The notes below the pieces were generated by a model, which searched no databases, had not been told where the DNA came from, and saw nothing but the letters and a program-made list of their open reading frames with translations. DNA of 64,000 nucleotides, taken from positions 186,001-250,000 of the forward strand of contig JACRHL010000003.1 of assembly GCA_016212085.1 (NCBI GenBank). The letters are read 5' to 3'. Positions 17,540 to 43,608 of this stretch are shown here, one piece after another. The DNA comes from Nitrospirota bacterium. GTDB lineage: Bacteria > Nitrospirota > JACRHL01. Numbering within the stretch: the stretch's first letter is position 1; each line of letters starts with the position of its first letter. The position numbers were made by a program, and so were the translations under genes.

Positions 17540-18310
17540 TCACCGCTTCCCCGACAGGGCGCAACGGAACCCAAAACTCGGCTGGCCGATCACCGGCAAC
17601 ACCGAGAAGCGGTTGGCGGAGCGGGCGAACATGGGCGCCGACTCCCACGAGCCGCCCTTCAACACCCGGTATTGTTGCCCGAACGCCCGGCGCTCCAGCG
17701 TCGATCCGGGGGGCCTGTCGTACCAGGTGTCCGTCCACTCCATCACGTTGCCGGCCATGTCCAGCGCCCCGTAGGGGCTGGCGTTCTCCGGGCGGCTGCC
17801 CACCGGCGCCGGGCGCCGCGTGTCCAGGGTGTGGTGGACCACCCATTCCGGGCGCCACGTGTCGCCCCAGGGGTACAGCCGGCCGTCGGGGCCCCGTGCC
17901 GCCTTCTCCCACTCCGCCTCCGTGGGCAGGCGCTTGCCCGCCCACGCGCAGTAGGCCCGGGCATCGTCAAAGTCCACGGCGCTGGCCGGTTCGTCCGGCA
18001 GGGGCGGACCGATAGTATACGCCCACAGAGGGAACGCACGGTCCTTGGCGGCGTGGATGAAGCTCAGGTATGCGCTCACGGTGACCTCGGTGCGGTCGAT
18101 CCAGAACTCGGGCAGACGGACCGTGCGGGCGGGCACGGAATCCACCGCCACATCGATCCCCAGGCGCCCGTCGCCGGGGTCGTGCCCCATGACGAACGGA
18201 CCCGCCGGAACCCGCACCATCCCCGCCAGGCGCGGATCGTCCGGGCGCACCGCCGAACCGGCGCACGCCACCAGGAGCAGCAGGGACAGCCAGGCCACAC
18301 CACGCGCCAT
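17540..18310 (-). CDS. Lipoprotein with FGE-sulfatase fold, lacking the catalytic cysteine
   Basis: A 256-residue protein of the formylglycine-generating-enzyme (SUMF1/FGE-sulfatase) superfamily. Family hallmarks are MVRVPAGPFVMG, FWIDRTEVT, RLPTEAEWEKAARG, the NVMEWT segment and GGSWES. ATG 18310 is preferred over ATG 18334, because GAGGGG precedes it and a short hydrophobic stretch ending in a lipobox (LLLLVAC) follows, so it should be a lipoprotein. True FGE has active-site cysteines shortly after the GGSW segment; here that stretch has none. It is therefore probably a binding or structural FGE-fold protein, not a sulfatase activator. It is the last gene of the cytochrome operon, 7 bases after a paralogue. 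Confidence 0.85.
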   Translation of the reverse strand: MARGVAWLSLLLLVACAGSAVRPDDPRLAGMVRVPAGPFVMGHDPGDGRLGIDVAVDSVPARTVRLPEFWIDRTEVTVSAYLSFIHAAKDRAFPLWAYTIGPPLPDEPASAVDFDDARAYCAWAGKRLPTEAEWEKAARGPDGRLYPWGDTWRPEWVVHHTLDTRRPAPVGSRPENASPYGALDMAGNVMEWTDTWYDRPPGSTLERRAFGQQYRVLKGGSWESAPMFARSANRFSVLPVIGQPSFGFRCALSGKR

Positions 18311-18317
18311 TGCCCCC

Positions 18318-19136
18318 TCACCGCCCCGCTTCATCCGCCGCCGACACGGCGCAGCGGAAGCCGATGGCCCGGTGCCGCTTGGTCGGCCGGAACGCCAGGG
18401 TCCGGTGGGTGACCCGCGCGTAGGGCCGGTACGACAGCATCCAGCTGGCCCCCCGGATCACCTTGTTCTCCTCGCCGAAGGCGCGCCGCTCCAGGTCGCT
18501 GCCCGGATACGCCCGGTACCAGTCGGCGGTCCACTCCGACACGTTGCCGCACAGGTCACGCGCGCCGTAGGGGCTCAGGTCGCCGTCAAAACTGCCCACG
18601 GGGGCGGTCCAGCCCAGCTTCCCCTCGCGCACGTTGCAGCGCTCCAGGTCGAACTCCTCGCCCCACGGGTAGCGCCGGCCGTCGGTGCCGCGCGCCGCCT
18701 TTTCCCACTCCGCCTCCGTGGGCAGGCGCTTGCCGGCCCACTCGCAGTATGCGTTGGCGTCGCCCCAGTCCACATAAACCACCGGGTGCCGTTCCAGGCC
18801 GGAGGGGAAGTTTCCCTCCTCCCACGAGAAGTACTCCGGGAAGCGGGGATCCACCGGCGCCCGGCGGCCGGTGGCGCGCACGAACTCGCGGTAGGCCAGG
18901 TTGGGCACCTCGGTGCGGTCGATCCAGAACGCGTCCACGTCCACCCGGTGGCGCGGCACGGAATCCACCCCCACCTCGACGCCCACCCGTCCGTCGCGCG
19001 CGTCGGCCCCCATCTCGAACGGGCCGGCGGGAACCCGCACCATGTCCTGGCGCAGGTCGGCGGCCCCGGCGGCGTGCACGCCGATCACCAGCAACCCCGC
19101 GCAGGCGAGGCGCCACGGATGCCAGTTAGCCCGCAA
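18318..19136 (-). CDS. Exported FGE-sulfatase-fold protein, paralogue of the next gene
   Basis: A 272-residue exported protein. I choose TTG at 19134-19136: a GGAGG Shine-Dalgarno lies five bases upstream, inside the end of the 12-haem gene, with an 11-base overlap. The product then begins with a signal peptide (RLACAGLLVIGVHAAGAAD). The FGE-fold hallmarks are present: MVRVPAGPFEMGAD, FWIDRTEV, RLPTEAEWEKAARGTDG, GNVSEWTADWY and RGASW. As in the neighbour, no cysteine follows the GASW segment where FGE has its catalytic pair. Tandem FGE-fold proteins behind a cytochrome are unusual; binding, scaffold or surface roles are guesses. Confidence 0.85.
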   Translation of the reverse strand: MRANWHPWRLACAGLLVIGVHAAGAADLRQDMVRVPAGPFEMGADARDGRVGVEVGVDSVPRHRVDVDAFWIDRTEVPNLAYREFVRATGRRAPVDPRFPEYFSWEEGNFPSGLERHPVVYVDWGDANAYCEWAGKRLPTEAEWEKAARGTDGRRYPWGEEFDLERCNVREGKLGWTAPVGSFDGDLSPYGARDLCGNVSEWTADWYRAYPGSDLERRAFGEENKVIRGASWMLSYRPYARVTHRTLAFRPTKRHRAIGFRCAVSAADEAGR

Positions 19137-21849
19137 TGGTGCCTCCGGCACACCACTCGCCGCCCTGCAGGCTGGAGCCGGAACGGGGGCTCTGGTAGCG
19201 GCAGTTGTCCATGTTCTCGCCGTGGCAGCGCAGGTTGCAGGTGAACTCGTCCGCCACCGGGTCATAGGTCCACTTGGGCTTGATGTCGATGGTCCCGTCC
19301 GCCTGCGGCCCGAAGTTGATGAGGTGGGTGTTGATCACCCCGTCCAGGTTGCCGTCCGTGGCGTCCGGCGGCAGGAACGCCGGATCGCCGGTGCCGTCGC
19401 CGTAGATGGTGTTGGTGGCCTCCACGTTGGAATGCACGTTGTAGTGGCACTCGTGACAATACGCCCCCGTGAAGCGCAGGTGATACATGTGCAGGTTGCC
19501 GTCCCAGTGGCCGGGCGTGGTGTTCGGCGGGCTGCCGAAGAACCGCGTCCAGCTGCTGTCGCGCATGGCCAGGTCCGGATCCGCGTGGCCAGGCGCGAAC
19601 GGATCGAACGCACGCCGGTCGTGGCACTGGAAGCAGAGCAGGAAGTTGTCCCAGTGGGACGCCCGGCCGCCGTCGCTCAACGTGCAGGCCTTGCTGCCGG
19701 GCGGCTCGCCACCCAGGCTCGGCTGCCCCTCGTAGCAGCGCTCCGGGTTGAGGATGTCGGTGTTGTAGTTGTTGCGCAGGATGCGCAGCTTGGTGGAGCC
19801 GTGCGGCCCGATCGCCGGATACTCCGGGAACAGGGCCTTGAGCGGCTGGAAGTTGGACGGCGCGTCGGTGGCGCGCAGGTTCGACTCGGTCACCGGACCC
19901 GGCACCACGCTGGTTTCGTTGGCGTTGTGGCAGTCGGTGCACTGGATGGTGCTGTCCACCGTGAGGCCGGAGCCCGACATCTGCAACTGCTTGTCCAGCT
20001 GGGGCGAGCGGTTGCGGCCCGGCACCGCCACCGGGTGGAAGGCCGCGTTGGACGGCTGCATGGTGTGACCGACGGCCGTGTCCGGCGTGTTCGGGTCGAA
20101 CTCCTTGCGCTTGTTGGAAAAGCCGCGATAGCTGAACGACGGGTTGGTGGGCGTCAGGTCACGCGGGTCGGAGCGGTGCACGGTGTCGTCCGGGAAACGG
20201 TCACCGGTGAAGACGGTGGTGTAGCTGTTGGCGTGGCAGCGGAAGCACACCTCGTACACGTACACCTCGCGGTCGTTGCCGGGCACGCCGGGGCCCACCA
20301 CGTTGCCGTTGATGTCGATGCCGCGCATGCCCTTGAGGCGGTTCTCGGGCACCACCTGGTGGGGGTTGTGGCAGTCGGTGCACTCGATGTGCGTGTTGTC
20401 CGGCTTGGCCAGCCCGATGCTCCCCTCGTTGCCCGCCGGCGGCGCCGGCGAGTTCAGCTCCACCCCCTCGCCGGGGCTGGCGATGAACACGGGCTCGTGG
20501 CCGCTGGCCAGGGACAGGTTCATGGCCGAGCCGCAGCGGGTGTCGTCCGGCAGGTAGCGCGGGCCGGTGGCGTTCAGCGCCGGCTGGCAGTTGGGGGTGT
20601 TCTGGTCCTTGTTGAAATGGCTGTAGATGTCCGGCGCCACCCGGTCGGTGAGGAACCGCGGGAAGGTGGGCGAGGTAAAGTCGCCGGCGGGCAGGTAATA
20701 GGGCATCTGGCTGCCCGCCGAGGGGACGGCCGCCGTGTTCGGCGCATGGCACATGAAGCAGGTGTGCTCCACCGCGTCGGTCGCCGTTTCGCTGATCTCG
20801 CTGGCCCCCTCCCGGTGCAGGCGCTTGGCGCCCTGGGCGGTGTGCGGGTCGTGGCAGTTGCGGCAGGCGGTCTGGGCCACCGTGTGCTGGCCGTCGAAGT
20901 CGTAGCCGAAATTCTCCGGCGGATTGCCGGGATCACCCGGATAGGTGTTGCGGGTGGCCGGGGAGGCCGCGTGGGTGCTGCCCCGCCAGCCCGGCTTCTC
21001 GTGGCAGTTCAGGCACAGGATGTCGGAACCGGGGGGATCGTCCTGCCAGATGGGGGCGCGCAGGAACTTGGGATAGGTGACCGCGTGCGGGTTGTGGCAC
21101 GAGGTGCACTGCACCGCGTCGTACACGCCGGGCACGTTGCCCTCGGCGCGGCGCAACGGGAAGATGGGGCTGTTGGCGCCGATCCGGTCGAGGGGCGGGC
21201 CCGGATCGACCAGCTCCGTGTCGCGCTGGGCCAGGGCCGAGTCGAAACGGAACGACACCGGGTGGTCGTTGGTCAGGTTGGTGCCCAGGCGGCGGGTATC
21301 CCCCCCCCACTGGCCGCCACCCTGGGGCATGACGATGCCGCGGGTGGCCGTGTCCGGGTACGCCACCACCGCCACCGCGTCCTGCGGGGTGGCGGAGTAG
21401 CCGCCGGAGCCGGGGGCGTTGACCACGCTGCCCAGGGCAATGGTGCCGTCGTGGCACGACAGGCACAGGCGCGAGTAGCCGGTGGGCGCGCCGGGGTGCA
21501 CGTCGCCCTCGAAGGAACGCGACCACACCTGGTCGTACAGCTTGTACGCGGCGGACGACAGGTGGCGGTTCCACAGGGGGCCCCGAATCTGCGCGGCCTC
21601 GGCACTGCCGCCGTGGGGGGTGTGGCAGAACACGCAGATCTCGCCGGTCTCCGGCGAATAGACGTTGTATCCGGGCACACGCTGACCGTTCACGCCCTGC
21701 GCGGAGATCCCCCGCGACGACAGGTTGTGCTTGGTCTTGGCGATGTCCTCCACCGCCTCCAGGGAGGCGGGTGGCGCCTGGGCCGGGGCGGCTGCCGGAA
21801 ACAGCAGGGCGGCCGCCCAGGCCCACAGGACCATGTGTGCAATCCGCAT
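19126..21849 (-). CDS. Exported dodecahaem c-type cytochrome, 907 aa
   Basis: A large multihaem cytochrome with a signal peptide (MRIAHMVLWAWAAALLFPAAAPAQA). I count eleven CXXCH motifs plus one CX3CH (CNLRCH, near residue 870), so up to twelve haems. Motifs lie near residues 72, 128, 246, 278, 331, 367, 486, 533, 636, 738, 797 and 870. Residues 35-290 closely parallel the whole tetrahaem protein encoded at 25899-27008: TKHN, CVFCHTPHGG, PLWNR, CLSCHDGT, NAPGSGG, DHPVS, CxSCHNPH, then a CxxCH ending. The remainder is an eight-haem extension. ATG 21849 is chosen because the signal peptide follows directly. It lies in the operon with a beta-barrel and NHL lipoproteins. Likely role: electron transfer at or beyond the outer membrane. 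A 9-base C run at 21300-21308 lies in the gene. Confidence 0.9.
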   Translation of the reverse strand: MRIAHMVLWAWAAALLFPAAAPAQAPPASLEAVEDIAKTKHNLSSRGISAQGVNGQRVPGYNVYSPETGEICVFCHTPHGGSAEAAQIRGPLWNRHLSSAAYKLYDQVWSRSFEGDVHPGAPTGYSRLCLSCHDGTIALGSVVNAPGSGGYSATPQDAVAVVAYPDTATRGIVMPQGGGQWGGDTRRLGTNLTNDHPVSFRFDSALAQRDTELVDPGPPLDRIGANSPIFPLRRAEGNVPGVYDAVQCTSCHNPHAVTYPKFLRAPIWQDDPPGSDILCLNCHEKPGWRGSTHAASPATRNTYPGDPGNPPENFGYDFDGQHTVAQTACRNCHDPHTAQGAKRLHREGASEISETATDAVEHTCFMCHAPNTAAVPSAGSQMPYYLPAGDFTSPTFPRFLTDRVAPDIYSHFNKDQNTPNCQPALNATGPRYLPDDTRCGSAMNLSLASGHEPVFIASPGEGVELNSPAPPAGNEGSIGLAKPDNTHIECTDCHNPHQVVPENRLKGMRGIDINGNVVGPGVPGNDREVYVYEVCFRCHANSYTTVFTGDRFPDDTVHRSDPRDLTPTNPSFSYRGFSNKRKEFDPNTPDTAVGHTMQPSNAAFHPVAVPGRNRSPQLDKQLQMSGSGLTVDSTIQCTDCHNANETSVVPGPVTESNLRATDAPSNFQPLKALFPEYPAIGPHGSTKLRILRNNYNTDILNPERCYEGQPSLGGEPPGSKACTLSDGGRASHWDNFLLCFQCHDRRAFDPFAPGHADPDLAMRDSSWTRFFGSPPNTTPGHWDGNLHMYHLRFTGAYCHECHYNVHSNVEATNTIYGDGTGDPAFLPPDATDGNLDGVINTHLINFGPQADGTIDIKPKWTYDPVADEFTCNLRCHGENMDNCRYQSPRSGSSLQGGEWCAGGTIAG

Positions 21850-21903
21850 AGGCACCCCAGGGCTGGTTGAACCTTCTATTCTAGTCAAAATGGTCATGCG
21901 TCA

Positions 21904-22965
21904 TCAGCCACCAGCCGGTTGGTCCGCCGGCGGCATCTCCGTATTGAGCAGCCGGAATATCTGCACCCGCCCGTTGCGGGTATCGGCCACGTAAATATCG
22001 TTCCCGGTGACGGCGATGCCGGCGGGCAGCCAGAACTGCCCCGGCCCGCTGCCGGATCCACCAAAGTGCATGAGCAGGCGGCCGTCGGCGTCGAACAGCT
22101 GCACCACGTCGTAGATGCCGTCCACCACGAACACCCGCCCGCCCTCGTCCACGGCCACCCCCTTGGGCTTGCTGAACCGCCCCAGCACTTGGCCCAGGCC
22201 GCCCAGCTCGGCCCGGTAGGCCCCGTCGGCCCCGAACACCTGCACGCGGAAGTTGAGGGAGTCGGTCACCAGCAGCTCGCCGGCGCCGTTCACCGCGACG
22301 TGGGTGGGGTAGTTGAACTCGCCCGGCCCCTCGCCGCGCTTGCCGATCTCGCCCGTCATCGCGCCGTTGGCATCGAACACCACCACCCGGTGGTTGCCCG
22401 TGTCGGCGGCGAACAGCCGCTGCCGGGGCACGTCCCACGCCAACCCGGCCACGCGCTTCAGGCCCTCGCCGAACACGCCCACGTAGATGCCGTCGGTGTC
22501 GTACACGTAAACGTGGTTCAGGATCGAGTCGGCCACGAAGATCCAGCGCCGCGCCGGGTCGAACGCCACCCCCACCGGCGACGCCAGGCGGCCGCCGGGG
22601 AGGCGGAAGGCCTGCGCGTAGGTGCCCTGGCGGGTGTTGAAGACGTGAACCACCTGCAAGCCGATGTCGGTCACCAGCAGGCGCCCCTCCGCATCCGCGT
22701 AAACGCTCACCGGCTGCTCGATGCGCGGCGGCTCCCTGCGGCCCGCCACCAGGCTCACCAGCCGCCGCCACGCCCCCTCGCGCACGCCGGCGTCCTCCGG
22801 CACACGGATCTGGTGCAGGTAGGCGATGCGCGGCGCGTCCGGCGGCACCGGCCACACCCGCTCCATGTCCGGCGCGAGGGTCAGCCCGCCGGGGCGCGCG
22901 GCGCAGCCCCCCAGCACCAGCAGCGCCGCGAGCCCCAGCACCATATGCCGCCACGCGCCTGTCAT
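21904..22965 (-). CDS. NHL-repeat beta-propeller lipoprotein
   Basis: A 353-residue lipoprotein: MVLGLAALLVLGGC carries the lipobox. After the signal comes the segment VWPVPPDAPRIAYLHQI, shared with the second NHL lipoprotein at 27083-28120. About six NHL-type blades follow, with recurring P.GVA.D...R.hV.D..N..V.VF. The start ATG 22965 overlaps the stop of the beta-barrel gene by one base (TGATG). Propellers of this type are, as I recall, neighbours of Geobacter outer-surface cytochromes and are thought to help assembly or docking; no catalytic residues are evident. It lies 54 bases before the 12-haem gene. Confidence 0.87.
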   Translation of the reverse strand: MTGAWRHMVLGLAALLVLGGCAARPGGLTLAPDMERVWPVPPDAPRIAYLHQIRVPEDAGVREGAWRRLVSLVAGRREPPRIEQPVSVYADAEGRLLVTDIGLQVVHVFNTRQGTYAQAFRLPGGRLASPVGVAFDPARRWIFVADSILNHVYVYDTDGIYVGVFGEGLKRVAGLAWDVPRQRLFAADTGNHRVVVFDANGAMTGEIGKRGEGPGEFNYPTHVAVNGAGELLVTDSLNFRVQVFGADGAYRAELGGLGQVLGRFSKPKGVAVDEGGRVFVVDGIYDVVQLFDADGRLLMHFGGSGSGPGQFWLPAGIAVTGNDIYVADTRNGRVQIFRLLNTEMPPADQPAGG

Positions 22966-24806
22966 CAGAAGGTCCGCACGACGTTGAGGCGGATGCTGTT
23001 GCTGTCGGTGCCGTCGCGGGCGCCGCTCAGGTCGATCATCTTGGCGTCGGCCTTCAGCGCGATGCGCACCAGGCCGATGCCGTAGTCGAGGGTGTAGCCC
23101 ACCGTCATCTCGCTGGACTCGAAACCGCCGCCCAGGTAGGTGCGGCGCACGTCGCCGGACAGGCGGCCGGTGGCGCCCCGGAACAGCCCCTTGGACCAGA
23201 TGGCCCCGGCGCGCAGCACCTGGCTGGAGCCGGACAGGGTGGCGGTGTTGTCGCTGTACTCGTAGCCCGCCGACGTGGCCAGCTCGTCCCACGGCAGGTA
23301 GCGCGCCTCGGTGTTGAAGTCGGTGCCGCGGAAGGTGCCCTGCGCCCCGTACTGGCGGTTCCAGTGCGTGCCCGCGTGCATGGTGGCGTCGAGGCTGTCA
23401 CCGGGACGCCACACGGAGCGCATGGGGTCCAGGGTGGCGGTGACGGTGGCGCCGTGCTCCAGGGAGTGCGGGTCCAGCCCCGAGCCGCCCGTGCCCTCGC
23501 GGATATCGGTCAGGCGGTACTCGCCGATCACCTGGACGTAGGGGATCAATTTGTCGGTGCCGTTGACGTAGACGGTGGAGGTCAAACGGTCCTGGGCAAA
23601 ATCGCCCCGGGTGGTGTGGTAGCCCACGTCGGTGCCCCAGCGCGCCTCCACCGGAACCGTGTCGTGCCGGCCGGACAGGAAGCCGGCGACGGTGTACGAG
23701 GTGCGGTCGGTGGCGGCGGCGCCCGAGGTGGTGTTGGCGGCCACCCCCAGCCGGGAGCCCACCGCCCAGCCGAAGGCCGGCCGGTAGCGGATGCCCGTGT
23801 TGGCCGTCATGGTGTCGAGGGTGACGGTGGTGAGATCCAGGCGGCGCACGGTGAAGTTGCCATCCACGTCGGTCTTGGTGTCGACGCGGTAGCTGGCGCG
23901 GCCGGCGAGCTGGTGGTTGATGATGTCGGCGTTCAGGTCCTGCGGCGTTTCCGTGTAGGCGTACGACAGGTTGGCGTTGAGCACGGCGCCGCGCTTGTAG
24001 CTTACGCCGCCGCCGTAGCTGTTGCTGGTGAGCAGCGTGCGCCCCGCGACGCGGCGCGGGCCGTTGGCGATGCGGCTGGTGACGTTGCCGTACAGGGTGG
24101 ACGCCAGACGGTCGTTCCACTGGGAGTGGGTGGAGGCGGACACGGCGTGGCCGGTGTCCGTGCCGTTGGGCAGGATGAACTGGGTGAACTGATAGCCGGT
24201 GTTGAGCATGTGCCGATCACTCAGGCGAAAGCGCTTGGACAGGGACAGCAGCCGCGATTTGTGGGAGCTGTCGCCGTTGTCCTGGGTGGCCTGGTGGGCG
24301 GTGATGGCCAGCGGCTCGCCATCCCACATCCTCACCCGGGTGGAAAGCGAGATGGTGCTGTTCAGCGAGCTCTGCCCCACCGTGCCGGCGCTGTTGTTGT
24401 CCACCAGCGAGCGGCGGAAGTTGACGGTCATGGGCATGGTGCCGGGCAGCAGCACCATGCCCAGATCCAGGTCGGTCATGCGCATGTCGCGGGCGGCGGT
24501 GGGCGTTCCCGAGAATGTGGCCAGGTCGCGCCGCCACCCGGCCCCGGCGGACCAGGTGGCGATGCGGTGGCTGACGAGGGTGCCGGTGGTGCCCAGGCGG
24601 TAGGTCTGGCCGAACCCCTTCTGGACCATGTCGACGCTGCCGGACCTGCTCTCGGTACGCGCGAAATCCCAGCTCAACGAACCGTTCAGGCGCAACGCCA
24701 GCGCATCGGCCGGCCAGGCCACCGGCGCGAGCAGCAGCGCCACGGCGCCGGCCCGCAGGGTGCGCAACACCCGGCGGGGCGCCTTATTGCGCGCGGTCCG
24801 GAACAA
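22965..24806 (-). CDS. Outer-membrane beta-barrel protein (putative electron-conduit porin), 613 aa
   Basis: After an N-terminal signal peptide (RAGAVALLLAPVAWPADALA) the protein is dominated by alternating polar/hydrophobic strands with aromatic girdles. It ends in VRTF, the terminal phenylalanine typical of Bam-inserted barrels. Its length suits a barrel of 20 or more strands, like the MtrB/OmbB conduit class, but I see no diagnostic motif, so family is uncertain. I prefer the TTG at 24806: AGGGGG stands six bases upstream. A TTG at 24827, overlapping the PPIase stop, is the alternative. It sits between a periplasmic chaperone and an NHL lipoprotein with cytochromes on both sides, which supports a porin-cytochrome role. 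Confidence 0.82.
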   Translation of the reverse strand: MFRTARNKAPRRVLRTLRAGAVALLLAPVAWPADALALRLNGSLSWDFARTESRSGSVDMVQKGFGQTYRLGTTGTLVSHRIATWSAGAGWRRDLATFSGTPTAARDMRMTDLDLGMVLLPGTMPMTVNFRRSLVDNNSAGTVGQSSLNSTISLSTRVRMWDGEPLAITAHQATQDNGDSSHKSRLLSLSKRFRLSDRHMLNTGYQFTQFILPNGTDTGHAVSASTHSQWNDRLASTLYGNVTSRIANGPRRVAGRTLLTSNSYGGGVSYKRGAVLNANLSYAYTETPQDLNADIINHQLAGRASYRVDTKTDVDGNFTVRRLDLTTVTLDTMTANTGIRYRPAFGWAVGSRLGVAANTTSGAAATDRTSYTVAGFLSGRHDTVPVEARWGTDVGYHTTRGDFAQDRLTSTVYVNGTDKLIPYVQVIGEYRLTDIREGTGGSGLDPHSLEHGATVTATLDPMRSVWRPGDSLDATMHAGTHWNRQYGAQGTFRGTDFNTEARYLPWDELATSAGYEYSDNTATLSGSSQVLRAGAIWSKGLFRGATGRLSGDVRRTYLGGGFESSEMTVGYTLDYGIGLVRIALKADAKMIDLSGARDGTDSNSIRLNVVRTF

Positions 24807-24816
24807 ACATGTCCCC

Positions 24817-25851
24817 CTATTCGACAAACTTCAGTTCGGCCTCGCGGACCAGCCCCGCAAGCCATTCGTTGCGGGCCTCCTTGCGCCGAGCCTCCAGCCA
24901 CTCCGTCTTGAACAGGGCGCGGTTGAGTTCGTCGAACGCCAGCTGCCGCCCCGGCTTGCGTTCGCCCACGCGCACCAGCGCGTAGCCATACAACGTCCAG
25001 ACCGGCTCGCTCACGGCGCCGGACGCCATGTCGAACGCCATGCGGTCGATCTCCTCGACGCCGGTCTGCCCCTGGTGCACCAGACCCAGGGTCACCAGGC
25101 TCAACTCCCCCCCGGCGGCGACCTCGGCGGCCACCGCGTCGAACGATTCGCCGGCGGTGATCCGATCACCCACGGCCTTCAGGCGGTCGCGCGCGGCATC
25201 CCACACGTCCTTGGGCGCGCTCGGGTCCACCCGCAGCATCAGGTAGCTGATGGCCGCCTGGGTGGGGATCACGAACTGCTCCCTATGGCCGTCGTAATAC
25301 GCCATCAGGTCGCCCTCGGTGGGCGCCGGCACCCGCGCCGCCACCTGCTCGGCAAGCTTCTCGCCCATGAGGTGCTCGCGCAGACCGGCGCGGATCGCGG
25401 TGACGTCGAGCCCTTGCGCGCTCACCGCCCGCCGGTAGTCCTCGTCGCTGGGAAAGCGCTGGCGCAGCTTGGCCTCCTCGGCCTCGATCTCCGCATCGCT
25501 CACCGCCACCCCCGCCTTGGTGGCCGCTTGCAGCATCAGCTTGCGCACCACCATCTCGCGAACGATCTGGTCGCGGTGGAAGCGGATGCGCTCGTCCGAC
25601 AGCACGCCGTGCCCGGTCACCTTGGGCACCCGCGCCGCCAGCGTCCGCTCCACCTCGGCGGCGAGGATCGCCTCGCCGTTGACGTAGGCCACCGCCTGGG
25701 CGGCGGCCGCCCCTTCCTTGTCACCTTCCGGCAGCTCGGATGCGTACAGGGGGGCCGTGCCGGCGGCGCCGATCAGTGCCGCCAGCAACAGCCCACCCCA
25801 TATGCGTGCCGGAAACGGAACCACCCTGGTTCCCCTTCCGATATGGAACAT
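24817..25851 (-). CDS. SurA/parvulin-type peptidyl-prolyl isomerase (periplasmic chaperone)
   Basis: A 344-residue exported protein with a signal peptide (IWGGLLLAALIGAAGTAPLYA). A SurA-like N-terminal helical domain follows (AVAYVNGEAILAAEVE, about residues 50-190). A PpiC-type domain begins near 195 with ISYLMLRV and contains LGLVHQG, FDMASGAVSEPVWTLYGYALVRVGER. It should fold proteins entering the outer membrane or cytochromes awaiting export. The direct neighbour is the beta-barrel gene, which overlaps or abuts its end. PPIases also occur, as I recall, in Geobacter OmcS/OmcE loci. Confidence 0.88.
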   Translation of the reverse strand: MFHIGRGTRVVPFPARIWGGLLLAALIGAAGTAPLYASELPEGDKEGAAAAQAVAYVNGEAILAAEVERTLAARVPKVTGHGVLSDERIRFHRDQIVREMVVRKLMLQAATKAGVAVSDAEIEAEEAKLRQRFPSDEDYRRAVSAQGLDVTAIRAGLREHLMGEKLAEQVAARVPAPTEGDLMAYYDGHREQFVIPTQAAISYLMLRVDPSAPKDVWDAARDRLKAVGDRITAGESFDAVAAEVAAGGELSLVTLGLVHQGQTGVEEIDRMAFDMASGAVSEPVWTLYGYALVRVGERKPGRQLAFDELNRALFKTEWLEARRKEARNEWLAGLVREAELKFVE

Positions 25852-25898
25852 GCGCTCGGTCCTTTTCGTCTACCCAACTTCCCGGGTTTCCAGGGCGC

Positions 25899-27008
25899 CT
25901 ACTTCTGATGGCACGAGAGGCAGATGGCGCTCTGGAAGTTCGGGTTGTTGCTGACGAGCGTGGTGTCGCCCACGTTGCCGGTGTGGGCCGCCCACTGGGT
26001 GGTGCCGCCGCCGGTGGGCAGCGCCACCGCCACGTTCGGCAGGCGCAGGAACAGCGGACGCGGGGTGTGCGGGTTGTGGCACGAGGCACACTCCACGTAC
26101 TGCGTGTTGTTGCCGCCGGTGGGGTAGGCACGCAGGCGGTCACGCACGTCGTCGTTCACCGTGCCGGTGCGGCTCAGCCAGGTCACGCCGCTGCCGTCCG
26201 CCGGCTTGCTGTTCACGAAGTTGGTGTTGATCTGCGTGAACTGCGGGTCCACCGCCGGCGCCGGGATCTGCATGCTGATCGGGTGATCGTCGCGCAGGTC
26301 CGGGGTCAGGTTGGGGAACGGCGACATGCCGAAGGTGCCCACGAAGTTCGTCGGGAAGCCGGCGAAGAACTGGGCATTGGTCTGCGGCCCCATGGGGAAC
26401 TGGAAGCAGTTGCCCGCGGCACCCGGCGTACAGTCGGCACGGGTGGTCTCCGACATGGAGCCGTCCGCGTCCACGCCCAGGGTGGCCACGCCGTTGTGGA
26501 AGGCCATGCTGGTGTCGGGCCCGGACGGGGTGGCCTTGTTGGCGGCGATGAAGCCGCCGGAACCCGGCGCGTTGATCAGCGAGTCGATGCCCACCGTGCC
26601 GTCGTGGCAGGACAGGCAGGCCAGCGACACGCCCTGCGGCTTGCCGTTGATCCACGAGGTGGCCCCGTCGAAGTTGGGGCTGTTGTACATCTGGTACACC
26701 TGGCTGGTGTCCGGCATGGCGCGGTTCCACAGGGGCACCGCGGTGGACGGGTCGCTCGGGCGGCCGCCGTGCGGGGTGTGGCAGAACACGCACACCTCGG
26801 TGGTGTTTGCCTGGGTGTAGCCCGTGTCCCGGTTCAGAAAGAAGTTGTGCTTGGTGTTCACCACGTCCTCGGCCCCCAGCTCGCAGTTCCCGGCCGCCCA
26901 GCTACCGGAAATACAAAGCTGCTGGGCCATGGCCGTTCCCGTCACCAGCGGCGCACCGCCCAGTGCCAGCGCAAGCGCTGCGAACGTGCCGATCAGTAAT
27001 CTTTTCAT
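25899..27008 (-). CDS. Tetrahaem c-type cytochrome, OmcE-like
   Basis: A 369-residue exported cytochrome with signal peptide MKRLLIGTFAALALALGGAP...AMAQ. Four CXXCH motifs occur: CVFCH, CLSCH, CASCH, CLSCH, the last three residues from the C-terminus. The arrangement (NTKHN, CVFCHTPHGG, PLWNR, CLSCHDGT, DDHPIS, CASCHNPH, terminal CLSCHQK) is the layout I associate with tetrahaem OmcE-type cytochromes that polymerise into extracellular filaments. AAGGAG precedes two candidate ATGs (27014 and 27008); 27008 has the better spacing. The same fold signature recurs in the pentahaem protein upstream and the N-terminus of the 12-haem protein downstream. Filament formation is inference. Confidence 0.88.
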   Translation of the reverse strand: MKRLLIGTFAALALALGGAPLVTGTAMAQQLCISGSWAAGNCELGAEDVVNTKHNFFLNRDTGYTQANTTEVCVFCHTPHGGRPSDPSTAVPLWNRAMPDTSQVYQMYNSPNFDGATSWINGKPQGVSLACLSCHDGTVGIDSLINAPGSGGFIAANKATPSGPDTSMAFHNGVATLGVDADGSMSETTRADCTPGAAGNCFQFPMGPQTNAQFFAGFPTNFVGTFGMSPFPNLTPDLRDDHPISMQIPAPAVDPQFTQINTNFVNSKPADGSGVTWLSRTGTVNDDVRDRLRAYPTGGNNTQYVECASCHNPHTPRPLFLRLPNVAVALPTGGGTTQWAAHTGNVGDTTLVSNNPNFQSAICLSCHQK

Positions 27009-27082
27009 CGCCATACTCTCCTTTTTTCCTCGCCCCGAATCAGGTGGCCTGGCCGGCCACCATGAGTTGATCACACGATTGT

Positions 27083-28120
27083 TCACGATCCATCCTCGCC
27101 CGGATAGCGGATCAACTCGTAAACGTTGATGCGTTTGTTGAACTGGTCCGCCACATATACCTTCCCGTCCGCGCCCATTGCGATCCCGGCGGGCATCCAA
27201 AATTGACCGGGCCCCACGCCCATGCCGCCGAAGAACAGCAGCAAGCGGCCCCGGCCGTCGAAAATCTGCACGTTGTTGAAGGCCGCGTCGGCCACGTACA
27301 CCCGGCCGTCCGCGTCCACCGCCACCCCCTTGGGCTTGGAGAACTGGCCGAAGCCGCGCCCCACCCCGCCGAACGCGGTGAGATACTCCCCCTCCGGGTT
27401 GAACACCTGGACGCGGAAGTTGAGCATGTCCACCACATGGATATTGCCGTCGGGCCCCACGGCGATGTTGGTGGGCCAGTTGAACTGGCCCGCGTCCGGC
27501 CCGTGGGCGCCGATGTCGCGCAGGTGGTTGCCGGCGCGGTCGAACACCACCACCCGGTGCTCCCGGGTGTCCACCACGTACACCCGGTCGCGGGCGGCGT
27601 CCACCGCCAGGCCCACGGGCTTGGCGAGGAACTCGCGGCCGCCGAAGGCATTCAGGTAGTTGCCGTCGTGATCGTACACCACCACCCGCGCCTGGGCCGC
27701 GTCGGACACGTAGATGCGCCCCTGGTCGTCCGTATCCACCCCCACCGGCTGGGCCAGCACGCCGCGCCCGTCCACCCCCAGAATCCAGAACGAGTGGTTG
27801 GCGAAGTCGAACACCAGCACCTTGTGCCAGCCGGTGTCGGCGACGAACAGGCGGCCGTCCCGGTCCATGTGCAGGCCGTAGGGCTTGGTGAGACCGGTGG
27901 TGCCGTCACCGCCGCCGGTCAGCGTGTCGAGGATGCTGCGCGAGCGGCCGGGCTCCACGTCGCCGCTGCCGGTGATGCTCTTGACGAACTTGACGCGCGG
28001 CTTGTCCGGCGGCAGCGGCCACACCACGTCGGGCACCGGGGCCTCCTTGTGGGTGGCGCAGGCGGCCAGCAGCAGCATGGCGGCCGCGGCGACGAGGGGG
28101 ATGAGCGGTCTACTTCTCAT
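27083..28120 (-). CDS. NHL-repeat beta-propeller lipoprotein, paralogue
   Basis: A 345-residue lipoprotein: MRSRPLIPLVAAAAMLLLAAC has a lipobox. It shares the VWPLPPDKPRVKFVKSI start and six-blade NHL layout with the protein at 21904-22965. Repeated motifs include KP.G..VD, VYV.D...HRVVVFD, QFNWPTN and FSKPKGVAVD. The ATG lies in the end of the pentahaem gene (11-base overlap), so the genes are translationally coupled. One NHL lipoprotein per cytochrome module suggests each cytochrome has its own docking or assembly partner; that is inference. Confidence 0.88.
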   Translation of the reverse strand: MRSRPLIPLVAAAAMLLLAACATHKEAPVPDVVWPLPPDKPRVKFVKSITGSGDVEPGRSRSILDTLTGGGDGTTGLTKPYGLHMDRDGRLFVADTGWHKVLVFDFANHSFWILGVDGRGVLAQPVGVDTDDQGRIYVSDAAQARVVVYDHDGNYLNAFGGREFLAKPVGLAVDAARDRVYVVDTREHRVVVFDRAGNHLRDIGAHGPDAGQFNWPTNIAVGPDGNIHVVDMLNFRVQVFNPEGEYLTAFGGVGRGFGQFSKPKGVAVDADGRVYVADAAFNNVQIFDGRGRLLLFFGGMGVGPGQFWMPAGIAMGADGKVYVADQFNKRINVYELIRYPGEDGS

Positions 28121-28913
28121 GGCACGTCAGGCACAGGGCGCTACCGTGGTTGGACACGCGCAGGAACGGGTCGCGCCCCTCCGAGTTGTCCTCGTCCGGG
28201 TTGTGGATGTCGTGGCAGGTGGCACACTGGACCTTGTCTCCCGCATAGGTCTGGATGCCGTTCTCGAAGGCCCGGCCGCCGTCGCGCTTGTGCACGGTGG
28301 GCTGGGTGAACTGGGGGTCCTGCATCCGGGAGGGATAGGGGATCGAGATCGGGTGATCGTCGCGCAGGTCCTTGGTGAGGTAGCGCACCACCGCGTCGTG
28401 GGCGGCGTTCACCCCACCGATGCCGCCCCCCTCGCGGCTGTGGCACTTGGCGCAGGAATCGGTGCCGCGGCCCTGCACGGTGGCGTCCATGCGATAGTGC
28501 ACCTGGGAGTCGGCCCAGTCGTGGAACTTGGGGACGTTGCGGATGTCGTCCACGCTCACCGTGCCGTCGTGGCACGACAGGCAGGCCAGGGAGATGCCGT
28601 CCGGCGCGTTGGGCGGAAGCGAATCGAAGTTGGGGCTCGAATACATCTGGTAACCGTCCTCGGTGGACAGGTTGCGGTTCCAGAGCGGCGCCACCGGGCT
28701 TCCGTTGTGGGGGGTGTGGCAGTAGATACAGGCCTCGCGGTAGTCGTTGAAGGTGAAGCCCTGCATGGGGCCGGTGGGCGAGCCGTCGTAACCGCGCTGG
28801 TTGAAAAAGCTCAGGTCGTGGCGCGAGCCGATGATGGAACCCCCCAGGGCCACCCCCGACCAGGCCATCACGCTGGCCACCAACAGACCGATGATGCCGT
28901 GCCACCGCGCCAT
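28110..28913 (-). CDS. Pentahaem c-type cytochrome, OmcE-like with one extra haem
   Basis: A 267-residue exported cytochrome; the signal peptide is MARWHGIIGLLVASVMAWSGVALG. Five CXXCH motifs: CIYCH, CLSCH, CAKCH, CATCH, CLTCH. The frame CIYCHTPHNG, PLWNR, CLSCHDGT, DDHPISI, CATCHDIHNP and terminal CLTCHEK matches the tetrahaem protein downstream. The CAKCH site sits in an insertion between the family's second and third haems. ATG 28913 is four bases after the preceding stop. It could be a filament subunit, a filament terminus or a periplasmic feeder. Confidence 0.88.
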   Translation of the reverse strand: MARWHGIIGLLVASVMAWSGVALGGSIIGSRHDLSFFNQRGYDGSPTGPMQGFTFNDYREACIYCHTPHNGSPVAPLWNRNLSTEDGYQMYSSPNFDSLPPNAPDGISLACLSCHDGTVSVDDIRNVPKFHDWADSQVHYRMDATVQGRGTDSCAKCHSREGGGIGGVNAAHDAVVRYLTKDLRDDHPISIPYPSRMQDPQFTQPTVHKRDGGRAFENGIQTYAGDKVQCATCHDIHNPDEDNSEGRDPFLRVSNHGSALCLTCHEK

Positions 28914-28917
28914 CGCC

Positions 28918-30114
28918 CTATGCGGCCCCGCCGGCGGGGTGGCCGGCATCGGCGAAGCCGTCCAGGCGGCTGATGCCGTTCATGGTGCTGAACCACATGC
29001 GGCCCTTGGAATCGACCGCGACGTCGAACACCGCGTCGGCCACCAGGCCGTCGGCGGTGGTGAAGGTGCGCCACCGGGAGCCGTCGAACATGCTGACGCC
29101 GCCGTCGGTGGCGGCCCACACGGTGCCGTCGGGGGCCTGGTGCAGGTCGGTCACGTAGTCGCCGCCCAGGCCGTCGTGGTGGGTGTAGGTGAGCCACTTG
29201 CCGTCCTTCAGCCGCGACAGGCCGGCGCCCCAGGTGCCGAACCAGCGGGCGCCGTCCTTGGCGAGCAGGACGCTCAGCACGTAGTTGGGGTTGTAGCCGT
29301 CGGCACTCTTGCCCGGCGTCTGGCGGTGGTGCTTGCTGGGGTTGCCGATCACCTCGTAGCCGCCCACCCGCTCGCGGGAGGCGCCCAGGCCGTTGGCGTG
29401 GTTATAGGTGGTCCAGGCCGCGCCGTCGAACACGCTGACGCCGGCCTCGGTGCCCAGCCACAGGGTGCCGTCGGCGGCCTGGGCCATGGCATACACCCAG
29501 TCGTCCACCAGGCCATCCTGGGTGGTATAGGTGCGCCACGCCTTGCCGTCGAAGTGGGACAGGCCGCTCCAGGTGGCCACCCAGTAGCCGGTGCCCCGCA
29601 CGTCCGCCAGGGTCTGGTACACGAACGGGTCGCCCAGGTCGGGAACCGACGTGTGGGTCCAGGACATGTCCGGCGAGACGTGCATCAGGCCGCCGCCGTG
29701 GGTGCCCACCCACAGCCCGCCATCGGGGGCGTAGTCGACGGACACCACGTTGTTGGAGTAAAGGCCGTTGCTCGTGTCGTAACGGGCGACGATGGCGTCC
29801 CGCGCCAGATCGTAGCGCAACAGGCCGCCCTCCGTGGCCACCCACGCCTGATCCCCGCGAAAGGCAACGGAATGCACGCTGGTGTTGATCTCGAAGTTGG
29901 TCCAGGACGGCTTGGGCTCCGCCGCCCCCCCGATGGCGGGAGGCTCTGCCCCCCCCCCCGCCGGCGCCGCCGAAACGGACGGATTTTCGGCAACCGGTTC
30001 GGCGGTCTGATTGCTGCAAGCCGCGAAAACAGCGAGGCAGGCGGCCGCCGACAGGGACGCGCCAACTACCCGTGCCAGGGCGGGCAGGGAAGTTATTTTC
30101 CCAGGTTTGGACAA
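28918..30114 (-). CDS. Lipoprotein with two-component-regulator-type propeller repeats
   Basis: A 398-residue lipoprotein starting at TTG 30114 (AGGGG six bases upstream), with a lipobox in LAVFAAC. A Pro/Gly/Ala-rich linker (about residues 35-68) contains eleven consecutive G's on the coding strand (29949-29959). Six or more propeller motifs follow (LWVGTHGGG, LWLGTEAGVSVFDG, WFGTWGAGLSRL, VWAATDGGVSMFDG, MWFSTMNGISRLDG), typical of the reg_prop sensor propeller. No histidine kinase or membrane segment follows, so it is a free lipid-anchored propeller. It is the first gene of the ten-gene cytochrome operon. Confidence 0.85.
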   Translation of the reverse strand: MSKPGKITSLPALARVVGASLSAAACLAVFAACSNQTAEPVAENPSVSAAPAGGGAEPPAIGGAAEPKPSWTNFEINTSVHSVAFRGDQAWVATEGGLLRYDLARDAIVARYDTSNGLYSNNVVSVDYAPDGGLWVGTHGGGLMHVSPDMSWTHTSVPDLGDPFVYQTLADVRGTGYWVATWSGLSHFDGKAWRTYTTQDGLVDDWVYAMAQAADGTLWLGTEAGVSVFDGAAWTTYNHANGLGASRERVGGYEVIGNPSKHHRQTPGKSADGYNPNYVLSVLLAKDGARWFGTWGAGLSRLKDGKWLTYTHHDGLGGDYVTDLHQAPDGTVWAATDGGVSMFDGSRWRTFTTADGLVADAVFDVAVDSKGRMWFSTMNGISRLDGFADAGHPAGGAA

Positions 30115-30157
30115 GCTCGACCCCTACCCAACGAAACAAAAACCGGTTGCCACTGGC

Positions 30158-30197
30158 GGTAGCCCGCGATGCTACCGACTACCCGCGACGCAGTCAA
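30158..30197 (-). promoter_or_regulatory. Candidate promoter and overlapping palindromic operator for the cytochrome operon
   Basis: Minus-strand TTGACT (30192-30197) and TAGCAT (30169-30174) are 17 bases apart, giving a good sigma-70 match; transcription would start near 30162, about 48 bases before the TTG start. A perfect 6-base inverted repeat GGTAGC-N7-GCTACC (30158-30176) covers the -10 and start region, the usual place for a repressor operator. Confidence 0.45.
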
Positions 30198-30242
30198 GCC
30201 GCAGCGGCCCGGAAGCGGTGCGACGTGGGCGTTGGAAACGGA

Positions 30243-30275
30243 CCGGTTCCACCGTTTGGCCCCCGGTGGGACCGG
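30243..30275. other. Long imperfect inverted repeat in the divergent intergenic region
   Basis: Twelve bases at 30243-30254 pair with 30264-30275 with a single G-T wobble, around a 9-base loop. It lies between the two divergent cytochrome promoters in the 437-base gap 30115-30551. It could be a transcript hairpin or a protein-binding site. Apart from this and the two promoters I see no gene in the gap. Confidence 0.4.
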
Positions 30276-30431
30276 CCGTGACAAACAACAAAACAGGCGC
30301 ACCCTGGGCGCGCCGGTCGGACGCTTGCCCGCAAATCACTGCAAGGAATATGCCCGCACTTTCGGCGGCCCGGTCACGCAGGCCGGCCCGGCTCCCGCCG
30401 GAAATTCCCTGGATGTGGAATGCCGGGATTC

Positions 30432-30461
30432 TTGACAGGGTGTTTTGAAAATTGTTACAAA
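30432..30461 (+). promoter_or_regulatory. Candidate sigma-70 promoter for the trihaem cytochrome pair
   Basis: A perfect TTGACA (30432-30437) is followed 18 bases later by TACAAA (30456-30461, four of six matches). This AT-rich patch stands out in the GC-rich surroundings. It lies about 90 bases upstream of the ATG at 30552. Confidence 0.5.
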
Positions 30462-30551
30462 CACCAAGCCCCTTCGAGTCGGGAAGCCGTTCTGTACCTA
30501 CAACACAATCGTGGTCTTGCTGGTGTTTGCGGGACCTAAGTGAGGTTGAGC

Positions 30552-30929
30552 ATGAAAAAGAGGCCCGTCGCCTTGTTCCTTGCGCTGGCAATGCTGTGTG
30601 CCGGCGCCTTTGTGTTTGTCGGCCAGAACACCTCGCAGGCCGAATACGGCGATATCACGCTGAACCGTCACGCCGAGAAGGCCGGCATGCCTCCGGTGGT
30701 GTTCCCGCACTGGTTCCACCGCATCCGCTTCAAGTGCAAGGTGTGCCACCCCTCCATTTTCGAGATGCGCGCGGGTGCGAACGACATCACCATGAAAAAG
30801 ATCGTGAACAAGGAATTCTGTGGCCGCTGCCACAACGGGACCATCTCCTGGCCGCCGCTGTACTGCGACCGTTGCCACGCGGGCAAGAGTGACATCAACA
30901 TCCCCAAGGCGCGCGGCTTCGTCAAATAG
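30552..30929 (+). CDS. Trihaem c7-type cytochrome, 125 aa
   Basis: A small exported cytochrome with signal peptide MKKRPVALFLALAMLCAGAF...QAE. Three CXXCH motifs (CKVCH, CGRCH, CDRCH) in the order VFPHWFH-CKVCHP-CGRCHNG-CDRCH match the c7-type trihaem domain. Such proteins are periplasmic electron shuttles. ATG 30552 is preceded by GAGGTT. It is divergent from the ten-gene cytochrome operon and is followed after 36 bases by a longer paralogue. Confidence 0.9.
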   Translation: MKKRPVALFLALAMLCAGAFVFVGQNTSQAEYGDITLNRHAEKAGMPPVVFPHWFHRIRFKCKVCHPSIFEMRAGANDITMKKIVNKEFCGRCHNGTISWPPLYCDRCHAGKSDINIPKARGFVK

Positions 30930-30965
30930 CCTTGTTGTTCTTGTTTCAGCCGAGAGGTTCGCATC

Positions 30966-31670
30966 ATGACGAATAGTCGGAAGTACCGTTACCTGATGGT
31001 CCCGTTCCTGGCCCTGGCGACGCTGGCGCTGCTGGCGGGCGTGCCCGCCGTGCAGGCGCAGGACGCGAAGAAGGCCGACGCGGCCCCCGCCGACGCGGCG
31101 GCCCCCGCCTCGGACGAGGACTTCTTCAAGTCGCTGATCGACCCGCGCCAGGCCATCTGGATGGACAGCCGTGGCGTGATCGCCGGCACCGGCGACCCCA
31201 GCGGTTTCGTGGGCGAGGCCTACAAGATGGGCAAGGGGCCGCACCCGGAGGCGCTGGAGCTGTCCAACCTGCCCACCGACCAGTACGGCCTGGTGGACTG
31301 GGCGCGCTCCATCCGCGAGGGCTTCATCACCCCGCGCCACACCCTGGACCCGGCCAAGCAGGGCAGCGCCGACGACAAGCCGTTCGGCCTGGCGCTGCTC
31401 ATCCCCGCCAAGTCGGAAACCATGCCCGACGTGATCTTCCCGCACGACATCCACACCATGTGGCTGACCTGCAATAACTGTCATCCCGAGATCTTCGCCA
31501 TGAACGGCGCGCTCAACAACAAGGTGATGACCATGCCGAAGATCGCCGCCGGCGAGTACTGCGGCCGCTGCCACAACCGCGTCGCGTTCCCGCTGTCCGA
31601 CTGCCAGCGCTGCCATGTGCACGACAAGGGCATCCCGGCTCCGGAAGGGGTCAAGGCGCCCGCGCCCTGA
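30966..31670 (+). CDS. Trihaem c7-type cytochrome with N-terminal extension, 234 aa
   Basis: An exported cytochrome (signal MVPFLALATLALLAGVPAVQAQ). The C-terminal domain, from about residue 150, carries CNNCH, CGRCH and CQRCH in the same layout as the preceding gene (VIFPHDIHTMWL, NCHPEIFAMNG, CGRCHN). Residues 35-145 are an additional region rich in Ala and Asp at first, without haem motifs, not present in the shorter paralogue. The gene is followed by a strong terminator at 31701. It probably relays electrons in the periplasm to the operon opposite. Confidence 0.88.
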   Translation: MTNSRKYRYLMVPFLALATLALLAGVPAVQAQDAKKADAAPADAAAPASDEDFFKSLIDPRQAIWMDSRGVIAGTGDPSGFVGEAYKMGKGPHPEALELSNLPTDQYGLVDWARSIREGFITPRHTLDPAKQGSADDKPFGLALLIPAKSETMPDVIFPHDIHTMWLTCNNCHPEIFAMNGALNNKVMTMPKIAAGEYCGRCHNRVAFPLSDCQRCHVHDKGIPAPEGVKAPAP

Positions 31671-42354: not shown

Positions 42355-43608
42355 ATGACCCGTTCCCGCGACAAGACCCGCCACCCGGTGCTGCGCTCCG
42401 CCGCCATCGCCACGCTGATCCTGGCCGCCGGGGCGTGGGCGTACGCGGAATTCGTCTATTCCCCGGTGATCTTCGGCCTGCGCGACGACTTCGTGCAGGC
42501 GGTGCCCAACCAGACGGTTCCCGAGGGCCTTACCTCCCTGTCCGCCGAATCGTGCGGCGCGTGTCACCGGGAGATCTATGACGAGTGGCGCACCTCCATC
42601 CACTCCCAGGCCTACGTGGACCCCTATTTCCAGGCCTACTGGCAAAAGGACGGGCACATCTGGATCTGCGCCAACTGCCACACCCCCCTGCAAAACCAGC
42701 AGCCCCTGATCGTGACCGGGCTGAAGGGCGACAAGATCCAGCACCCGCTGACCGAGCCCAACCCCATGTTCGACCCCGCCTTGCAGCGGGAGGGCATCAC
42801 CTGCGCCGGCTGCCACGTGCGCGACGGGGTGGTGTACGGCCCCTACGCCGATTCCCAGGCCCCCCACCCCACCGCCTACGACCCCAGGTACCGCACCACG
42901 GAGATCTGCTACTGGTGCCACCAGGTGCCGTCCGGCCCGTTCCAGTTCTACAACGGCGGCCCGTGCGCCACCTTCCTCGAGTTCGAGGACGGGCCCTACG
43001 CCAGGCAGGGCTTCACCTGCCAAACCTGCCACATGCCCCCCGTCACCCGCCCCGCCGCCCACGGCGGCCCAGAGCGCGACACGCGCCGCCACCTGTGGCG
43101 CGGTGGGCATTTCCCCGACATGCTGAACCAGGCCCTCGAGGTGAAGCTGTCCGGCCCCGATGGCGGCTTTCAGGCGGGCGACGACGCCACCTTCGGCCTG
43201 CGCCTCACCAACGGCGGCGCCGGCCACAAGATCCCCACCGGCGACCCGGACCGGCACTTCACCATCACCTTCGAGGAGATGCAGGACGGCAAGGTGGTGG
43301 AAAGCAAGCGCCACACCATCGGCCGCTGGCTGATCTGGAAGCCCGTCATCATCGAACTGTACGAGAACCGCATCCCGCCCACGGAGTTCCGCGACTACCG
43401 CTACACCGCGCAGACCGGCCCCGGCCGCCAGTTGCGGGTGACCGTGACGTACCACATCGTGACCGAGCGGGCCAAGGGACGGTTGATCCGCAAGTACGAC
43501 CTGCCGCCGGACACGGTGGACCACTTCACCCTGTTCGAGCAGACCGTCGACCTGGGCGCGCCGGACGCGGCCGCCAACGCCGCCGCCCGGCCCGACACGG
43601 CGTCGTAG
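42355..43608 (+). CDS. Membrane-anchored or exported pentahaem cytochrome, c554-like
   Basis: A 417-residue protein. Residues 14-32 form one hydrophobic segment (signal anchor or signal peptide). Five CXXCH motifs lie in the first 230 residues: CGACH, CANCH, CAGCH, CYWCH, CQTCH. The start CGACHREIYDEWRTSIHSQA is typical of the cytochrome c554/c' haem domain. Residues 235-400 form a beta-rich domain without haem (GHKIPTGDPDRHF). No nitrite- or hydroxylamine-reductase catalytic signature is seen. It is monocistronic and convergent with the AstE-RimK-RimB operon. Confidence 0.87.
   Translation: MTRSRDKTRHPVLRSAAIATLILAAGAWAYAEFVYSPVIFGLRDDFVQAVPNQTVPEGLTSLSAESCGACHREIYDEWRTSIHSQAYVDPYFQAYWQKDGHIWICANCHTPLQNQQPLIVTGLKGDKIQHPLTEPNPMFDPALQREGITCAGCHVRDGVVYGPYADSQAPHPTAYDPRYRTTEICYWCHQVPSGPFQFYNGGPCATFLEFEDGPYARQGFTCQTCHMPPVTRPAAHGGPERDTRRHLWRGGHFPDMLNQALEVKLSGPDGGFQAGDDATFGLRLTNGGAGHKIPTGDPDRHFTITFEEMQDGKVVESKRHTIGRWLIWKPVIIELYENRIPPTEFRDYRYTAQTGPGRQLRVTVTYHIVTERAKGRLIRKYDLPPDTVDHFTLFEQTVDLGAPDAAANAAARPDTAS

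Follow-up and report, generated by a model that had tools for sequence, protein, structure and literature searches.

The locus described here has its closest known counterpart in the Uet (undecahaem electron transfer) gene cluster, of which Eddie 2022 is said to be a study. The Uet components are an extracellular tetrahaem cytochrome (UetA), a peptidyl-prolyl isomerase (PPIase; UetB), a barrel porin (UetC), trihaem cytochromes (UetDEG), NHL proteins (UetHI) and an undecahaem cytochrome (UetJ), and the published work handles the system as a porin-cytochrome complex (PMC10734462). The cluster is named uetABCDEFGHIJ in Tenderiales (PMC12575090) and is also reported from the Leptothrix-Sphaerotilus group (PMC13386937). 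A second point of comparison is the nanowire cytochrome OmcE of Geobacter, in which a histidine of the neighbouring subunit ligates one haem (PMC9473688). We analysed a 64 kb stretch of DNA (the window) from the genome of a Nitrospirota bacterium (2.7 Mb, 23 contigs, 99% complete), in which positions 17540-31670 carry a dense set of multihaem cytochrome genes. Gene content, gene order and homology to proteobacterial loci, rather than to the Tenderia proteins themselves, make it very probable that the system encoded here is of the Uet type, in a Nitrospirota version.

The locus contains the Uet core, that is, a UetJ of 11-12 haems clustered with tetrahaem, PPIase, barrel, trihaem c7 and NHL genes. 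Ten packed genes form a run on the minus strand (17540-30114), and a pair of trihaem c7 genes lies divergently on the plus strand (30552-31670). The genes are as follows.

28918-30114, minus strand: reg_prop propeller protein, probable lipoprotein, 398 residues with a TTG start (Pfam Reg_prop, 9.7e-20); same position in loci L021 and L022
28110-28913, minus strand: pentahaem OmcE-type cytochrome, 267 residues, five CXXCH (against OmcE, 7tfs, E = 1.2e-19); kept in Nitrospirota loci
27083-28120, minus strand: NHL propeller lipoprotein 1, UetH/UetI-like, 345 residues with a lipobox (Pfam NHL, 1.3e-33); adjoins the tetrahaem gene in Nitrospirota
25899-27014, minus strand: tetrahaem cytochrome UetA of the OmcE family, 371 residues
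24817-25851, minus strand: UetB, PPIase of the SurA/parvulin type, 344 residues (Pfam SurA_N_3, 3.3e-12; Rotamase_2, 6.1e-12)
22965-24827, minus strand: UetC, predicted 30-strand outer-membrane barrel, about 600 residues, exact start uncertain
21904-22965, minus strand: NHL propeller lipoprotein 2, UetH/UetI-like, 353 residues with a lipobox (Pfam NHL, 4.7e-28)
19126-21849, minus strand: UetJ, 12-haem cytochrome, 907 residues, an OmcE-type domain (residues 29-285) followed by an eight-haem extension
18318-19151, minus strand: FGE2, secreted protein with the fold of formylglycine-generating enzymes (FGE; Pfam FGE-sulfatase, 1.8e-58), lacking the C-x4-C pair
17540-18310, minus strand: FGE1, FGE-fold lipoprotein with a lipobox (Pfam, 7.4e-54), lacking the C-x4-C pair
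30552-30929, plus strand: trihaem c7-type cytochrome, UetD/E/G-like, 125 residues (Pfam Cytochrome_C7, 2.3e-13)
30966-31670, plus strand: trihaem c7-type cytochrome with an N-terminal extension, UetD/E/G-like, 234 residues (Pfam Cytochrome_C7, 1.9e-11)

The original prediction, made by reading the DNA, had described a packed ten-gene run with two divergent trihaem c7 genes, and all twelve genes stand with small corrections, among them the start of the first c7 gene, now placed at 30552. The haem count of its 12-haem cytochrome also holds, but the motifs are 11 CXXCH plus one CX3CH. Gaps between neighbouring genes of the minus-strand run range from -26 to +68 bp, and every gene has a third-position GC of 0.89-0.95, which together indicate real collinear genes. 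In the window, six frames read from stop to stop hold three or more CXXCH, compared with none in ten shuffled windows. Pfam confirms the NHL, Reg_prop, SurA_N/Rotamase, FGE-sulfatase, Paired_CXXCH and Cytochrome_C7 domains in the locus proteins, and the NCBIfam results agree with the domain assignments, the barrel excepted. Scans of the locus for promoters and terminators performed no better than chance level, and it is solely from the gene spacing that the run is read as a putative single ten-gene operon.

In a scan that took a single genome for each GTDB species, 80 loci were found. About 30 proteobacterial loci keep the order tetrahaem-PPIase-[barrel]-c7s-NHL(-NHL)-UetJ, and a long frame of the outer-membrane-protein type directly follows the PPIase gene in nearly all the proteobacterial loci. 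The Nitrospirota order is (reg_prop)-pentahaem-NHL-tetrahaem-PPIase-barrel-NHL-UetJ-(FGE). The gene-neighbourhood check proposed with the original prediction recovered the full ten-gene order, identical and with the divergent c7 pair, in L022, a genome of the window's family; the pair is also present in L021. The locus thus resembles the Uet cluster in combining the tetrahaem, PPIase, barrel, trihaem c7, two NHL and 11-12-haem genes, with homologous UetC and UetJ. It differs in that the c7 genes are divergent rather than internal and number two rather than three, that one NHL gene is shifted ahead of the tetrahaem gene, and that pentahaem, reg_prop and FGE genes are added. The tetratricopeptide repeat gene uetF (Tel_16525 in Ca. 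Tenderia; PMC5371394) has no counterpart in the ten-gene run, every gene of which has another assignment. We take this gene and the third c7 gene as variable parts and not as the defining core. The combination of parts had been presented as one not previously described; its core gene set and order are in fact those of the published Uet cluster, found across Proteobacteria, and what the Nitrospirota version contributes is the pentahaem, reg_prop and FGE-fold proteins. A literature search of a limited library on undecahaem cytochromes and Nitrospir- returned only a karst metagenome study and no account of the Nitrospirota version.

In a UetJ tree, built by a quick method and rooted at the midpoint, the window groups with Nitrospirota and Myxococcota rows (100%) as the sister of the proteobacterial Uet branch (100%). 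It lies outside the clade of the Uet carriers Gallionella, Sphaerotilus and Dechloromonas, in a tree whose rows do not include Tenderia, and its separate Nitrospirota-Myxococcota branch is a further difference from the Uet cluster. The closest named relatives of the window UetJ are metagenome-assembled genomes (MAGs) of Nitrospirota. Looser forms of the cluster were found in Myxococcota, KSB1 and Calditrichota, which extends Uet from Proteobacteria to Nitrospirota and, more loosely, to these phyla. With this wider spread, the hypotheses of a wire and a conduit become testable in cultured carriers, such as Sphaerotilus mobilis and Aromatoleum. Two further UetJ placements were observed. The UetJ of L107, on a contig from a Nitrospirae-labelled MAG, is placed within the proteobacterial Uet branch, by transfer or mis-binning. 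L029-L031, from another Nitrospirota family, have a UetJ on a distant branch, a cluster with three internal c7 genes, and a 7-haem cytochrome.

UetA is homologous to OmcE from end to end. As a single sequence it matches OmcE (7tfs) with E = 5.9e-16, and the profile of a 36-member UetA family matches it with E = 7.4e-52 (profile 25-276, chain 7-232) with all eight haem-ligating histidines kept, which bears out the kinship proposed for the tetrahaem protein. Four CXXCH motifs and exactly four further histidines are invariant in the 36 sequences, and four distal histidines are the number needed for bis-histidine ligation of four haems. In the window UetA they occur in TKH, CHTPH, DDHP and CHNPH, and in the alignment the invariant ligands include the counterpart of the cross-interface histidine of OmcE. 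The UetA chain ends a few residues past the last CXXCH, as that of OmcE does. The sole other full-length match of the UetA profile in the PDB is 9yuq, a 'putative multiheme cytochrome c' whose chain N has 218 residues and was deposited with 16 identical copies; it is perhaps a second OmcE-type filament. The relation to OmcS that had also been suggested was not upheld by the profile search, in which the match to 6ef8 is a haem-motif match limited to one CXXCH stretch (5.3e-7), and UetA has four haems, not six. The pentahaem protein is the second OmcE-type protein of the locus, with one haem more than OmcE. In a Nitrospirota Uet locus (L043:3320-5549), two OmcE-type tetrahaem genes stand in tandem, suggesting a duplication of the subunit.

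These results bear on a reading in which the locus encodes a porin-cytochrome conduit without a filament, and the OmcE-type proteins are monomers, at the surface or in the periplasm, that have only the haem core in common with OmcE. The window UetA is longer than OmcE (about 370 residues, compared with 232) and carries long insertions, the published treatment of Uet as a porin-cytochrome complex (PMC10734462) fits such a reading, and among relatives of OmcS homology by itself is known to give wrong calls on wire formation. The invariance of all the OmcE ligands, the cross-interface one included, the chain end close to the last CXXCH and the 16 copies of 9yuq, which are suggestive of a polymer, argue against it. 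We regard the conduit without a filament as a substantial alternative, held at roughly one chance in three, and consider the formation of an OmcE-like polymer by UetA to be evenly balanced.

UetC had been called a conduit-like barrel, and its predicted structure agrees with this. Although no sequence match was found in Pfam, NCBIfam or PDB, an AlphaFold2 model from a 19-row alignment (predicted local distance difference test score, pLDDT, 86.6) shows a 30-strand barrel ending in Phe. The first Foldseek match of the model is MtrB, the barrel of a true porin-cytochrome conduit, the Mtr complex (6r2q_B, E = 1.1e-9), followed by LptD (5.2e-7). The locus resembles MtrCAB/MtoAB in encoding a large outer-membrane barrel with multihaem cytochromes. 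It differs in that UetC has 30 predicted strands, compared with 26 in MtrB, and no match to the MtrB/PioB family PF11854, which has none elsewhere in the host genome either; a family scan found no decahaem cytochrome of the MtrA/DmsE type in the locus. By hhalign, the Nitrospirota UetC profile matches the proteobacterial UetC, a partner picked by its position after the PPIase, at 99.2% (E = 2.1e-19). It also matches, at 96.3% (E = 1.8e-9), an outer-membrane-like protein that follows OmcE orthologues, in loci from the phylum of a genome titled Deltaproteobacteria; the match of the proteobacterial UetC to this OmcE-neighbour protein is weaker (69%). Nitrospirota LptD controls score only 0.3-1.1%, which rejects the explanation that any two large barrels would match each other.

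In the loci of the OmcE orthologues (L134-L139), the gene after OmcE, or after its adjoining NHL gene, encodes this outer-membrane-like protein of 753-811 residues. One or two NHL genes are present, with a trihaem gene in some. In contrast to the present locus, these loci have no UetJ and no recognised PPIase, and carry 8- to 10-haem cytochromes instead. A PPIase beside the omcE of Geobacter had been assumed in the original prediction; none was recognised in two genomes with 59% identical OmcE, where the frames at that position look, by eye, like membrane proteins of the ResB/ResC type. Both kinds of locus hold an NHL protein and a UetC-type barrel, and OmcE and Uet thus appear to be offshoots of a single theme. 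Its common parts, as the compared sequences suggest, are a cytochrome of the OmcE type, a barrel of the UetC type and an NHL lipoprotein.

The company of UetC also admits another explanation, in which UetC, the PPIase and the NHL proteins would form an assembly or secretion machine for the OmcE-type cytochromes and the electrons would cross elsewhere. The analogy is the osc (OmcS companion) cluster of Geobacter, for which Shen 2025 reportedly proposed that OscH acts in the folding of OmcS, OscEFG in its secretion and OscD in its morphology. Compared by description only, osc resembles the present locus in encoding PPIase, propeller and channel-type proteins with a wire cytochrome, and differs in that its wire cytochrome, OmcS, is no relative of the UetA encoded here. 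The adjacency of the PPIase and the barrel in nearly every locus and the UetC-related protein beside OmcE orthologues are consistent with a secretion role. However, the best structural match of UetC is a conduit barrel, the genome encodes no other barrel of the MtrB/PioB type that we could find, and the cytochromes and periplasmic c7 carriers encoded with UetC would be needless for a pure secretion system. The secretion machine is therefore considered unlikely, at about one chance in five.

UetJ contains the third OmcE-type stretch of the locus. Residues 29-285 match the UetA profile at 3.4e-56, and a UetA-type domain is present in 103 of 108 UetJ-like frames, covering most of the profile in 85. 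No convincing PDB relative of the eight-haem extension was found. The anchoring of nanowires in the outer membrane and the point of electron entry are an open question according to a recent review (PMC12307469). One cluster here unites an OmcE-type subunit, UetJ with its fused OmcE-type and eight-haem parts, and the very large barrel, and the UetC-related protein beside OmcE orthologues bears on the same question. UetJ might be an OmcE-type wire subunit fused to an eight-haem chain, a covalent terminus that would plug an OmcE-type filament (of UetA, the pentahaem protein or both) into UetC, with OmcE connected to the cell similarly. This is speculative and we would give it low odds. If true, it would explain how the outer membrane holds OmcE-type nanowires and how the two are connected electrically, and the possible fused wire end in UetJ, together with the UetC-type barrel common to the OmcE loci, makes the anchoring question directly testable.

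The FGE-fold proteins had been counted as part of the system; their genes recur near UetJ, but with a lineage bias, and the proteins lack a catalytic motif. FGE-fold genes follow UetJ in 7 of the 11 Nitrospirota loci that extend 1 kb or more beyond it, compared with 6 of 73 other loci. The association is recurrent but lineage-biased, and the family is common in the host genome, which encodes ten FGE-fold domains. Formylglycine-generating enzymes carry a catalytic C-x4-C pair near the C-terminus. The pair is missing in both FGE1 and FGE2, which rejects them as active enzymes of this kind; three of the 20 locus-associated homologues that were readable have it. Relatives of the fold include structural lipoproteins such as PorK/GldK; together with the missing pair, this makes a scaffold role more likely than catalysis, as judged from sequence. 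Homologues of the reg_prop protein flank several Nitrospirota and some proteobacterial Uet loci. In the PDB, the c7 protein encoded at 30552-30929 matches the c7-domain proteins 3ov0, 3oue and 1rwj.

Elsewhere in the genome, two partial COX1-like matches flank or enclose an FGE-fold gene (G000:C22:153518-155482), and proteins of this fold may partner redox complexes generally in this lineage. This neighbourhood and the typically periplasmic location of c7 proteins would suit a periplasmic or enzymatic redox system, in which the cytochromes would serve some soluble substrate, with the barrel as its ordinary porin. Such a system is highly improbable, since Pfam and NCBIfam scans found no catalytic redox domain encoded in the locus, the barrel with its 30 predicted strands recurs after the PPIase across phyla, and OmcE itself is extracellular.

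The gene content and order, homology, ligand conservation and predicted barrel size observed here are best explained, in a judgement that we favour to a limited degree, by a Uet-type outer-membrane route for extracellular electron transfer with OmcE-type surface cytochromes. That the locus is an outer-membrane electron route of some form is held with more assurance, as probable. In the proposed scheme, for which we infer the localisations, the polymerisation, the joining role of UetJ and the scaffold roles, the trihaem c7 proteins would carry electrons across the periplasm, and UetC, the very large barrel, would span the outer membrane and hold or pass a multihaem cytochrome. UetA, with or in place of the pentahaem protein, would be an OmcE-type subunit that polymerises or stacks on the cell surface, with the PPIase helping it to fold. 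UetJ would link the OmcE-type chain with the other parts of the route, and the NHL, reg_prop and FGE-fold lipoproteins would serve as non-catalytic scaffolds.

Several points weigh against this route. Filament and conduction are assigned to the Uet members from sequence and model only, and the Tenderia Uet proteins were not part of the sequence comparison. The AlphaFold2 model of UetA, made without haem from the 36-row alignment, is unusable (pLDDT 47.8), and the insertions of UetA could block packing. The template-modelling (TM) scores of the UetC model to MtrB are low (0.35-0.38), which a different strand number could explain. The osc precedent would assign a comparable PPIase, propeller and channel set to secretion and morphology and not to conduction, and physiological conduction by cytochrome filaments is itself disputed by some authors (PMC13194489). 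In favour of the route, on a cathode the trihaem genes rank with the most strongly expressed genes of Ca. Tenderia (PMC5371394). As for the direction of electron flow, this expression suggests electron uptake there. The host genome of the window encodes a COX1-type oxidase and, for DsrA, contains nothing above the cut-off; none of these results is decisive for the direction.

Further genes were noted outside the run. At 5022-17306 on the minus strand, 233 bp downstream of the FGE pair and in the same direction, lies the gene of a secreted protein of 4094 residues that has TIG and fibronectin-III domains but no haem motif. A partial homologue (37%) occupies the same place in L022, and the protein might be a giant surface adhesin belonging to this locus. 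Also within the window, positions 42355-43608 of the plus strand encode a 417-residue pentahaem cytochrome with Cytochrome_C7 and MtrC-domain-like matches. Elsewhere in the genome, large frames with paired CXXCH (G000:C1:28509-29735 and G000:C16:116621; 1180 and 491 residues) are possible further electron-transfer cytochromes.

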